DNA from: Candidatus Magnetominusculus dajiuhuensis
GTDB taxonomy: Bacteria > Nitrospirota > Thermodesulfovibrionia > Thermodesulfovibrionales > Magnetobacteriaceae
DNA: 64,000 nt
Assembly (NCBI GenBank): GCA_015233465.1
Contig: JADFXP010000012.1
Location: 1-64,000, forward strand
Reading direction: 5' to 3'
Below the pieces are notes generated by a model. The model was given only the letters and a program-made list of their open reading frames with translations, was not told the origin of the DNA and did no database searches. Positions 49,206 through 54,394 of this stretch are shown piece after piece (position 1 is the stretch's first letter; each line of letters starts with the position of its first letter). Position numbers and translations under genes: made by a program.

Positions 49206-49438
49206 AATCAATCTATTGCAAATTGTAAATAATATTTTCTTTGGGAGTTTCTGCAGGAGTGTGAGGGCTGCAAGCCCTCGCAGACTAAAATTGCGGTAAT
49301 ATAGCAAAGCGCGGTAATATAGCAAAGCTATAAAATCAATCTATTGCAAATTGAAAATAATATTTTCTTTGGGAGTTTCTGCAGGAGTGTGAGGGCTGCA
49401 AGCCCTCGCAGACTAAAATTGCGGTAATATAGCAAAGC
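49206..49438. repeat. Tandem duplication of a 105-bp block
   Basis: 49206-49310 and 49334-49438 are near-identical (one visible difference, TTGTAAAT versus TTGAAAAT), with a 128-bp period. Each contains the palindrome TGAGGGCTGCAAGCCCTCG and ends with GCGGTAATATAGCAAAGC, which is itself present once more between the copies. It fills the gap before the mutS 3' end. Confidence 0.85.
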
Positions 49439-49442
49439 TATA

Positions 49443-52169
49443 TTACTGCACAGCATTTTTTTTAAGTTCCTTCAATACATTCAACGCCTCATCGCCTTTC
49501 ATTCCTTTTAAATTCAACTGCGCAAGCGCCATAATCACTGGATTTTCCATATCTGTAAATAGATCAAGCTGTGCCTTATAACTTCTTTTTTGAGTTACAG
49601 TAAATTTCTGTTTTCCAGTATCAGCGAGTTCATCCTTTTCAAGACCAGATAATATCTCCCTAGCCCTGTCAATTATCTTATCTGGCAGTCCTGCAAGTCT
49701 TGCAACATGTATCCCATAACTTTTATCAGCAGCGCCCTTTGCTATCTTATGGAGAAACATTATCTCATCCCCCCACTCCTTAACCGTAACATTGTAATTA
49801 ACCACGCCCTCTGTAGTTAAAGAAAGCTCAGTGAGTTCATTATAATGAGTTGCAAAAAGGGTCTTGGTCTTGATTGAGGAAGCAATATAATCAGCAACCG
49901 CCCATGCAATGCTTATCCCGTCAAATGTGCTTGTCCCCCTGCCGACTTCATCAAGTATTATCAGGGATTTATCTGTAGCATTATTAACTATATTAGCTGT
50001 CTCAACCATCTCTACCATAAATGTACTCTGCCCGCGGGCAAGATAATCAGATGCCCCAATACGAGTAAAGATCCTATCCACTATCCCAATTGTTGCAGAC
50101 TCTGCAGGTACATACGAACCGATTTGAGCCATCAAGACAATAAGCGCTGTTTGACGCATAAATGTTGATTTTCCAGCCATATTTGGTCCTGTTATTATAA
50201 GCAGCCATTCCGTTTCCATATCCATGACTGCGTCATTTGGTATAAATCTCTCTGTTTCAAGTAATTGCTCAATAACAGGATGCCTGCCTTCAATTATATT
50301 AATTACCCCATCATCAGTAATCTCTGGCTTTACATAATTATTCCTCTTAGCAACACTTGCCATAGACTGAAGCAAATCAAGCAGCCCTACTGCCTCAGAT
50401 GTAGTCCTAAGCCTTGGTACATAAGCAGCAAGTTTTTCAATCAGCTCCAAATAAGTATGCTGCTCAAGGGACTTTAAACGTTCCTCAGCCCCAAGTATCT
50501 TGTGTTCATAGTCTTTTAATTCTTCTGTAATATATCTTTCGCCGTTTACAAGGGTCTGTTTTCTAATAAAATAAGGAGGAACCAGCGGGATATTTGCCTT
50601 TGAGACCTCAAAATAATATCCAAATACTCTGTTATAACCGATCTTTAGATTTATGCCAGAAGCCGCGCGTTCCCGCTCTTCAAGTTCAAGGAGATATTTT
50701 TTACCGCTTGTAGACAGATGCTTTAACTCATCAATATTTGGGTCTAAACCAATTTTAATTACATTGCCGTCTTTGATATTATTTGGCGGAGGATCGCTTA
50801 TTGTATTTGTGATTATCTCAGCTAAATCTCTAAAATCACTAAGCTGCCCCCTTATCATATGAATTAAAACTCCTGAAGAATTATTATGGGCTTTTTGAAA
50901 CGGGTCGAGACCCTCGTCCCACGACTTATGGGTATCGTCCCACGACTTATGGGTATCGTCCCACGACTTATGGGTATCGTCCCACGACTTATGGGTATCG
51001 TCCCACGACCTATGGGTGTCGTCCCACGACTTTTCAAGGGCAATCTTTAACTTTGCTATTTCTTCAACTGAGTTTCTTATAGCCATTAAATCACGAGGGG
51101 ATATGGTCTTTCTCATTAAAGAAGAAGAAAGCCTCTCTAAATCCGATACATTTTTCAGTGACTGCCTGATTGACTCAATAAGTTCATAATCACCAATTAA
51201 TATAGTTACTCCATCAAGCCTTTGCTCAATCTCCAGTTTATTTATTAAAGGACGGGCAATAATATCCCTTAAAAGTCTGCCTCCCATTGGAGTAAGCGTA
51301 TGATCAATGACTGAAACAAGCGTGCCTTTTGAGCTGCCATTTTTTAGATTATTAAAAAGCTCAAGATTTCTTATTGCTGAGGCATCTAAAAACATATGAT
51401 CAGAAGTATTTAAAATCCTGATTCCCTTAAGATTCAGATGCGATTTCTGGGTCTCTATAAGATACTTTACAAGTCCTCCAGCAGCAGAGATTATGCTTTT
51501 ACTCATCCCATACAACCCAAATCCATCAAGAGTACTAACCTTAAAATACTCAAGCAGTGTCTTATAACTGACTGTGTGATCAAACCAGTAATTGTCATAA
51601 TAAGTGGTATAATGCTCACCCTGATTATGAGAATAAAATATATCACCCTTTAGAGATTCAGGGCATATGACCTCGCCGGGTTTAAAGCGAAAGATCTCAT
51701 CCATCAATGGTTTATCACTCTCAAAGACAAACAAATCTCCTGTTGAAATATCTGATACAGCAATTCCGTGTCCTTGTCCAGACGGAACAAAACTCAATAT
51801 ATATTTATTTTCCTTTGGCTCATCAGGTTCAAATGTGCCTGGGGTTATGACCCTGACAACATCCCTTGCAACAATGCCTTTGACGTCAGCAGGGTTTTCC
51901 ATCTGCTCGCATACTGCTACCTTTCTGCCTGCATCAATGAGTCTTTTTAGATAAGTGTCAATTGCATGATATGGAACACCGCACATAGGCAGCGGATTTT
52001 CCTTCTTACGGTCTCTTGTGGTCAAGGCAATATTAAGGATAGGAGCGGCCTCCTCTGCGTCAGTCCCAAACATCTCATAAAAATCTCCAAGCCTAAACAA
52101 AATCAAGGCATCTGGATACCTTTTCTTTATATCTGTATACTGCTTCATAACTGGAGTTAACTCATTCAT
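49443..52169 (-). CDS. mutS: DNA mismatch repair protein MutS with in-frame repeat insertion
   Basis: A 908-residue MutS. The mismatch-contacting Phe-x-Glu is in GDFYEMFGTDAEEA, the Walker A motif is GPNMAGKSTFMRQTALI, and DEVGRGTSTFDG and ATHYNELTEL complete the ATPase. MutS scans DNA for mismatches with MutL and ATP. Between about residues 380 and 430 it holds an insertion absent from ordinary MutS: five SWDDTH-type units from a 21-bp minisatellite and then DEGLDPFQKAHN from a palindromic element. It lies in the lever/core region before KIGYNRVFGYYFEVSKANI. All catalytic motifs are intact, so the protein is probably functional, but repeat expansion could alter it. Confidence 0.95.
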   Translation of the reverse strand: MNELTPVMKQYTDIKKRYPDALILFRLGDFYEMFGTDAEEAAPILNIALTTRDRKKENPLPMCGVPYHAIDTYLKRLIDAGRKVAVCEQMENPADVKGIVARDVVRVITPGTFEPDEPKENKYILSFVPSGQGHGIAVSDISTGDLFVFESDKPLMDEIFRFKPGEVICPESLKGDIFYSHNQGEHYTTYYDNYWFDHTVSYKTLLEYFKVSTLDGFGLYGMSKSIISAAGGLVKYLIETQKSHLNLKGIRILNTSDHMFLDASAIRNLELFNNLKNGSSKGTLVSVIDHTLTPMGGRLLRDIIARPLINKLEIEQRLDGVTILIGDYELIESIRQSLKNVSDLERLSSSLMRKTISPRDLMAIRNSVEEIAKLKIALEKSWDDTHRSWDDTHKSWDDTHKSWDDTHKSWDDTHKSWDEGLDPFQKAHNNSSGVLIHMIRGQLSDFRDLAEIITNTISDPPPNNIKDGNVIKIGLDPNIDELKHLSTSGKKYLLELEERERAASGINLKIGYNRVFGYYFEVSKANIPLVPPYFIRKQTLVNGERYITEELKDYEHKILGAEERLKSLEQHTYLELIEKLAAYVPRLRTTSEAVGLLDLLQSMASVAKRNNYVKPEITDDGVINIIEGRHPVIEQLLETERFIPNDAVMDMETEWLLIITGPNMAGKSTFMRQTALIVLMAQIGSYVPAESATIGIVDRIFTRIGASDYLARGQSTFMVEMVETANIVNNATDKSLIILDEVGRGTSTFDGISIAWAVADYIASSIKTKTLFATHYNELTELSLTTEGVVNYNVTVKEWGDEIMFLHKIAKGAADKSYGIHVARLAGLPDKIIDRAREILSGLEKDELADTGKQKFTVTQKRSYKAQLDLFTDMENPVIMALAQLNLKGMKGDEALNVLKELKKNAVQ
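50886..51030. repeat. 21-bp minisatellite and hairpin element inside mutS
   Basis: Six copies of CGTCCCACGAC start at 50915, 50936, 50957, 50978, 50999 and 51020 with an exact 21-bp period; the spacer is TTATGGGTAT, with CTATGGGTGT in the last. Immediately beside it, 50886-50914 carries the hairpin AACGGGTCGAGACCCTCGTC. Since 21 is a multiple of three, gain or loss of units keeps the mutS frame. Confidence 0.92.
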
Positions 52170-52948: not shown

Positions 52949-54394
52949 ATGCAATCACATTCTACACCTGCTTTAACTAATTTATCTGGCATAAGCTTTA
53001 TTGCTTTGGATAAAAACCCAGCCTCTATTTCCCAATTTACAAACGGGCTCAGAAGTCTCGGAGCAGATGTATTTACATTTAATAATCTTGATGATGCTCA
53101 AACGCTTCTTTCGCAGCGAGTTACAAATGTAGATCACGTGCCTATTGACATCATCCTCTTAGATATTAAACTCGCTGATGAGCAGGCATTTTCCTTAATC
53201 AAAACCTATAAAGAAAGTAATCCATTTCTTTTACTTTATATAACATTAGACTCTGGATTCAAAAATGTTGATACAGAATTAAACATCAATGCGCTGGGAA
53301 TAGATGATTTCCTTCAAAAACCCCTTCAATTTGAACGTTTCGGAAGTTTAATAGAACTAACGCTTGGACGCAAATCCTCTCAAAGCACATCTCTAACATT
53401 AACAGAACCTTTAATAGGAAATGCACGGCCATTCTTCCTCTTCCGCTCCTCTGCAATGCGTTCTGCGCTAATGAATCTGCCTGAAATTGCAGAGTCCAGA
53501 CAGCATGTCCTTATCACAGGTGAAACAGGCACAGGCAAAGAAATAATCGCGCGTGCAATCCATGCCCTTAGTAAACTGCAAGGTCATTTTGTTGCCGTAA
53601 ACTGCGGCGCTATACCTGAGGGACTTATTGAAGGCGAGCTATTTGGTCATGAAAAGGGCGCTTTTACTGGAGCTATTAAGACTAGAAAAGGCAAATTTGA
53701 ACTTGCAGAAGGCGGCACACTGCTCCTTGATGAGATTGGCGATATGCCTTTGGGACTCCAAATGCGCCTGCTTAGGGTACTTGAAGACGGCTATGTATAT
53801 CGAGTCGGCGGTGAAACGCCGATTGCTCTTAATATGCGAATAATCTCTGCAACACGTGTTGACCTTAAAAAAGCCGTTATTGATAAACTATTTAGAGAAG
53901 ACCTATATTATCGCTTAAATATCTTAAACATCCATCTCCCGCCTTTGAGGGAAAGAAAAGAAGATATTTCATATCTATCGGTATTTTTTATGCAGCGCGC
54001 ATTTGCGCAATTAGGGAGACAACTGCCGTATCCAAGCCTCTCTCCTGAGACAATTCATATACTTGAAAATCATATCTGGAGCGGTAATGTCAGAGAACTG
54101 CGAAATCTGATAACACGACTTGCCGTAATTCTCCCTAAAAATATCAACCAAGTGCTTCCAATTCATATACTGCCACACATTGAAGATGAGGCAGCTGCAC
54201 CAATTAATATCAATAATGAGGCTATGGGTGTCGTCCCACGACCATTTTTCAGTATTCAATCTCCTCTAATTCTTAGTAAATTAGAAGATGATTACATCAA
54301 AAAAGTCCTTTCTGAAACAAACGGCAATCGCACAAATGCTGCAAAAATTTTAGGCATCAGCACTAGAACTTTAAGGAGAAAATTAAATTCTTAA
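52949..54394 (+). CDS. Sigma-54-dependent response regulator (NtrC family)
   Basis: A 481-residue regulator. The receiver domain (about 15-140) keeps the phospho-Asp (ILLDIKL) and Lys (LQKPL), but one of the usual acidic pair is replaced (ALDKN). The AAA+ domain has GETGTGKEIIARAIHAL, the sigma-54-contacting GAFTGA and the GEL..GHEKG context, and the arginine finger region SGNVRELRN. The C-terminal Fis-type HTH is NGNRTNAAKILGISTRTLRR. Near residues 424-431 a single unit of the mutS 21-bp repeat encodes MGVVPRP in the linker between the ATPase and the DNA-binding domain. No partner kinase is adjacent. Confidence 0.92.
   Translation: MQSHSTPALTNLSGISFIALDKNPASISQFTNGLRSLGADVFTFNNLDDAQTLLSQRVTNVDHVPIDIILLDIKLADEQAFSLIKTYKESNPFLLLYITLDSGFKNVDTELNINALGIDDFLQKPLQFERFGSLIELTLGRKSSQSTSLTLTEPLIGNARPFFLFRSSAMRSALMNLPEIAESRQHVLITGETGTGKEIIARAIHALSKLQGHFVAVNCGAIPEGLIEGELFGHEKGAFTGAIKTRKGKFELAEGGTLLLDEIGDMPLGLQMRLLRVLEDGYVYRVGGETPIALNMRIISATRVDLKKAVIDKLFREDLYYRLNILNIHLPPLRERKEDISYLSVFFMQRAFAQLGRQLPYPSLSPETIHILENHIWSGNVRELRNLITRLAVILPKNINQVLPIHILPHIEDEAAAPININNEAMGVVPRPFFSIQSPLILSKLEDDYIKKVLSETNGNRTNAAKILGISTRTLRRKLNS

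Follow-up and report, generated by a model that had tools for sequence, protein, structure and literature searches.

Does an in-frame tandem repeat inside a mismatch-repair gene mark a switch of the mutation rate, or did it arrive there for reasons unrelated to repair? The question is raised by mutS (49443–52169, minus strand) in the 64,000-nt stretch of DNA analysed here (the window), for which the original prediction proposed an in-frame minisatellite inside the gene. The gene encodes an intact MutS of 908 aa with a lineage-specific insertion. The protein scores 994 bits against NCBIfam PRK05399 (cut-off 480) and, judged by Walker A/B and the N-terminal F-x-E mismatch motif, belongs to the family, with GDFYEMF, GPNMAGKST and DEVGRGT all present and conserved. 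As set out below, the repeat is very probably a REP/RPE-like miniature dispersed palindromic repeat that inserted in a permissive loop, expanded in situ and is near-neutral.

The array spans 50914–51030 on the minus strand, starting at 50914 rather than at 50886 as first proposed, and encodes (SWDDTHK)n at residues ~380–419. TRF reports 50914–51032 with a period of 21 bp, 5.7 copies and 96% matches, and CGTCCCACGAC starts at 50915, 50936, 50957, 50978, 50999 and 51020, giving a period of exactly 21 bp. The proposed six in-frame copies are confirmed by TRF, by the period and by the intact MutS, except that the array comprises five REP-like units of 21 bp and a sixth truncated to 12 nt. Unit 1 (51010–51030, minus strand), GTCGTGGGACGACACCCATAG, is an exact match to a 17-bp core found genome-wide; units 2–5 (50926–51009, minus strand) are four copies of GTCGTGGGACGATACCCATAA; and unit 6 (50914–50925, minus strand) is GTCGTGGGACGA. 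Identity of all six, as had been implied, holds for units 2–5 only, since unit 1 differs from them on the coding strand. The resulting peptide reads SWDDTHR-(SWDDTHK)4-SWDE. Units 2–5 have in common a private C-to-T change that is synonymous, indicating that the repeat, once inserted, was multiplied on the spot by tandem duplication. As a structured mRNA, the array does not surpass shuffled sequences in folding (z −0.98), and Rfam returned only a sub-threshold match, outside the array.

To place the repeat in the protein, MutS was compared with homologues and solved structures. The array block is absent from the MutS of all 28 relatives from the same family and order, in which the loop is short, and is also missing from the MutS of one Clostridiales genome and of two IMG/VR contigs. 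The whole insertion relative to these 28 proteins covers approximately 50872–51032 on the minus strand (~50 aa, residues ~380–433). Alignment to solved MutS structures (PDB) stops at query residue 379 and resumes at 436, equivalent to E. coli MutS residues 383 and 390. Given the short loop in relatives and this alignment gap, the array sits in a core-domain loop that varies in length (E. coli residues 383–390), which upholds the original placement of the repeat in the core domain and the view that it is not a feature of the MutS family. The loop is neither a catalytic nor a DNA-contact motif. An AlphaFold2 model (four sequences) was poor (pLDDT 51.5), with the insertion at low confidence between two core helices. 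One of the 28 relatives, from genus g2 of the same family (L069), carries an unrelated 18-residue insertion at the identical loop, which suggests an insertion-tolerant site.

The repeat unit is not confined to mutS. Within the window, TCGTCCCACGAC has seven matches with ≤2 mismatches, against 0.7 expected, and the seventh (54231) lies outside mutS. This copy, an exact 17-bp core at 54226–54242 (minus strand), sits 3.2 kb from the array in a sigma-54 regulator gene (52949–54394, plus strand), where its antisense reading gives GVVPRP in the linker that joins the AAA+ and HTH domains. We made targeted searches of the 75-contig draft genome. The core, GTCGTGGGACGACACCC, consists of a 5-bp stem, a GGG loop and a CCC tail, and has 29 genome-wide matches with ≤1 mismatch. 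A 19-position pattern, AGTCGTGGGACGACNCCCA, has 40 matches with ≤3 mismatches, compared with one for its reversed control. These repeat-family matches are spread over about 22 places on 14 contigs, many of them unlinked to repair, so the array is not a mutS-specific minisatellite. The unit consensus is [A-rich]GTCGTGGGACGAC[A/T]CCC[RTA], with one unit measuring ~20–22 bp. As DNA the hairpin is short and of modest stability (−3.9 to −4.7 kcal/mol).

A dispersed palindrome could instead be an operator or a nucleoid-protein site, placed by selection and not by copying. A short inverted repeat with fixed spacing fits such a site, as do the mostly intra-operonic placement and the orientation bias towards the sense strand (~16:4, counted by eye; two-sided p about 0.012). 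All 24 of the GTCGTNNNACGAC palindromes, however, have the loop GGG (22) or AGG (2), and the CCC tail is common to most of the 38 aligned units; with a dimer site, other spacers should be tolerated. Nor would a binding site be expected to form tandem arrays or to appear as net insertions in coding genes. We rejected the operator reading because the palindromes have loop and tail in common, and consider protein-selected placement in general very unlikely. The uniform loop and largely common tail point instead to copies by descent, and it is as such, not as protein-binding palindromes, that we read the GTCGTNNNACGAC palindromes from their sequence.

The copies between genes lie mostly within operons (gene names assigned by eye from translations), for example between RnfE/RnfA-like genes and after a tuf-like gene, and at 8 of about 12 intergenic sites the copy starts ≤8 nt from a stop codon. 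One copy (L053, G000:C38:15806) falls exactly between a Cas1-like gene and a Cas2-like one and immediately follows the stop codon. At L105 (G000:C31:14791-14887), five units with 20-bp spacing separate histidine kinase and response regulator genes, and the first unit provides the G that ends the kinase stop codon (TAG). TCCC-tailed copies at G000:C11:126972, C55:85565 and C7:5929 are preceded by A-runs, some being followed by AAAAGTGAAA-like sequence, and perhaps form a subfamily.

Copies within genes occupy either strand and vary in reading frame. Relative to homologues, rph has an insertion of 11 aa, the TIGR00275 flavoprotein one of exactly 7 aa (21 bp) and trpE one of 12 aa (against PDB homologues). 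In ispE the element is present with no net gap relative to E. coli IspE, and so reflects replacement or a limit of the alignment. These reading frames bear on whether (SWDDTHK)n was selected as a MutS-specific interaction or stability module. Such a module would account for an aromatic and charged peptide repeated in a loop, and the L069 insertion shows another genus of the family also extending that loop. Yet elsewhere the same DNA is read in other frames and on other strands: the sense peptide is SWDDTH in mutS, SRGTTP in rph and ispE, and GRGTTP in the flavoprotein, and copies in trpE and rnpA give VSSHD antisense. The peptide is therefore not what is conserved, and we regard a selected protein feature as highly unlikely.

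Spacing was compared between coding and intergenic arrays. The arrays in coding sequence (mutS, trpE and an ORF at C11:66129) keep 21-bp spacing throughout, and those between genes are spaced at 20, 21 or 22 bp. An array of 21-bp units is free of stops in five of six frames, while sense-strand arrays of 20 or 22 bp always meet a stop. An exact period of 21 bp, as seen in mutS, is thus the outcome expected of purifying selection on the reading frame. The same observations bear on misassembly, a concern in a 75-contig draft. At 117 bp the mutS array fits within ordinary read length, its reading frame is intact, and arrays occur at independent loci with different spacings, making an assembly artefact extremely unlikely.

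The original prediction was that copy-number variants of the array could act back on the mutation rate as a mutator switch, with mismatch repair toggled or tuned by the number of units in the loop. Identical in-frame units do imply past changes in copy number, and mutL offers a precedent, in which a 6-bp in-frame tandem repeat in the ATP-binding region acts as a mutator switch (PMC2955026). Both cases are in-frame tandem repeats in mismatch-repair genes, but the mutS array differs in its 21-bp unit, in its derivation from a dispersed element and in its position in a length-variable core-domain loop, as opposed to the ATP pocket. The proposed feedback of MutS on slippage of its own array also conflicts with work in E. 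coli, in which loss of mutS left the stability of 15-bp repeats and of 28 VNTRs with units >5 bp unaffected, because mismatch repair handles bulges of 1–4 nt and does not act on slippage of longer units (PMC3477136). The element is found in unrelated genes as well, so mutS is not singled out, and with one genome per species no unit-number polymorphism is known. The same unit number in all relatives had been named as the outcome that would speak against a switch; what we find is relatives with no array altogether. We consider a mutator switch very unlikely. There is equally little reason to expect a combined case, in which an untagged miniature mobile repeat, its 21-bp unit open in five of six frames, spreads harmlessly in genes while its expansion in mutS tunes mismatch repair.

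Returning to the dispersed repeat, the evidence suggests how the mutS array formed. Very probably, a unit inserted in the MutS core domain, in a permissive loop flanked by two helices, and then grew to six units by in-situ tandem duplication. The unit being 21 bp long and the frame being used without a stop, the gene remains open, and it carries a hydrophilic loop of ~50 residues. MutS most likely tolerates the insertion, which would be nearly neutral; both this neutrality and retained MutS activity are what we infer. The insertion itself, the identical units 2–5, the preserved frame and the dispersed copies are observed directly, and comparison with relatives at about 60% protein identity suggests that units move as such.

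The units may have spread through replication error or through the action in trans of a Y1/HUH transposase. No transposase was found beside any copy. We rejected mobilisation by a RAYT, as none of the five Y1_Tnp (PF01797) matches in the genome has the core within 1.5 kb. Phage origin was also rejected: the only exact 17-mer in IMG/VR falls within an ordinary coding gene on a 322-kb contig and was taken as chance. At L123 (G000:C5:67920), an IS200-like tnpA is flanked by other palindromic repeats, AGCCCTGAAAGGGC with a CAGGGTG-rich partner, and these possibly constitute a separate REP family.

The family appears restricted to this lineage. The core was not found in other genomes of the host's own family, and 99 relatives yielded a single match beyond this genome, in G021, carrying one mismatch. 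A search of 395 further genomes from the phylum gave nothing beyond isolated one-mismatch matches, one each in 9, from which we conclude that the family is probably lineage-restricted (comparison genomes, one per species and all from other genera).

Comparison with known repeat systems places the family among REP-like elements in the broad sense: dispersed 20–40-bp palindromes in many copies, mostly intergenic and near ORF 3′ ends. GTAG- or CGTC-tagged REPs are known in over 80 species near ORF 3′ ends, occur also inside genes, many of them for DNA replication and repair, and sometimes supply a stop codon (PMC3733652; mutS is not named in its main text). The present family is similarly small, palindromic, dispersed, near ORF 3′ ends and also intragenic. 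The GTAG superfamily is defined by an unpaired GTAG (or GYRG-like) tag beside the stem in >90% of members and by a RAYT flanked by repeats; here GTAG occurs at 2 of 38 units, most having AAAG, TAAG, TAGG or ATAG, and no Y1 transposase is flanked by the core. The CGTC superfamily, whose members have a CGTC tag, an 8–9-bp stem, a 4–5-nt loop and a CCA tail, includes a class without a dedicated transposase (PMC3733652). None of the 38 units has an upstream CGTC, the stem is 5 bp and the loop 3 nt, and the ACCC[A] tail bears only a loose resemblance to CCA. Tagged REPs also form head-to-head dimers, in contrast to the head-to-tail arrays of 20–22-bp units seen here.

Rickettsia palindromic elements (RPEs) are likewise palindromic and have entered many protein-coding genes in frame, as this element has in mutS, rph, the flavoprotein gene and trpE relative to homologues. 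Some RPEs correspond to CGTC REPs (PMC3733652), whose tag is missing here. The present family differs from RPEs in sequence, and RPE-1 is longer than its unit. Cyanobacterial small dispersed repeats are reportedly mobile, with units of 20-odd bases, and are also found inside genes (Elhai and others, 2008); these belong to a different phylum, differ in sequence and are set apart by description. PARCELs are tandem coding repeats with DNA dyad symmetry that are mobile within genomes, but conserve a 25-residue protein motif (PMC2996958), whereas frame and strand vary between genes in the present family. The family is, then, a new one: untagged, lineage-restricted and REP/RPE-like, outside both tagged superfamilies.

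The mutS repeat accordingly has the appearance of genomic litter that is tolerated, not of a switch of the mutation rate. It adds a REP/RPE-like family with in-frame insertions in housekeeping genes (mutS, rph, trpE, rnpA, ispE), and offers a natural set of loop insertions for studying the spread of units without an obvious transposase. It also cautions that a repeat should be sought elsewhere in the genome before an in-frame repeat in a repair gene is called an adaptive mutator device. Just downstream of mutS, at 49206–49438, lies a 128-bp tandem duplication (1.8 copies, 99%) that carries a GAGGGCTGCAAGCCCTC palindrome and an extra copy of GCGGTAATATAGCAAA, a 16-mer found nowhere else in the genome.
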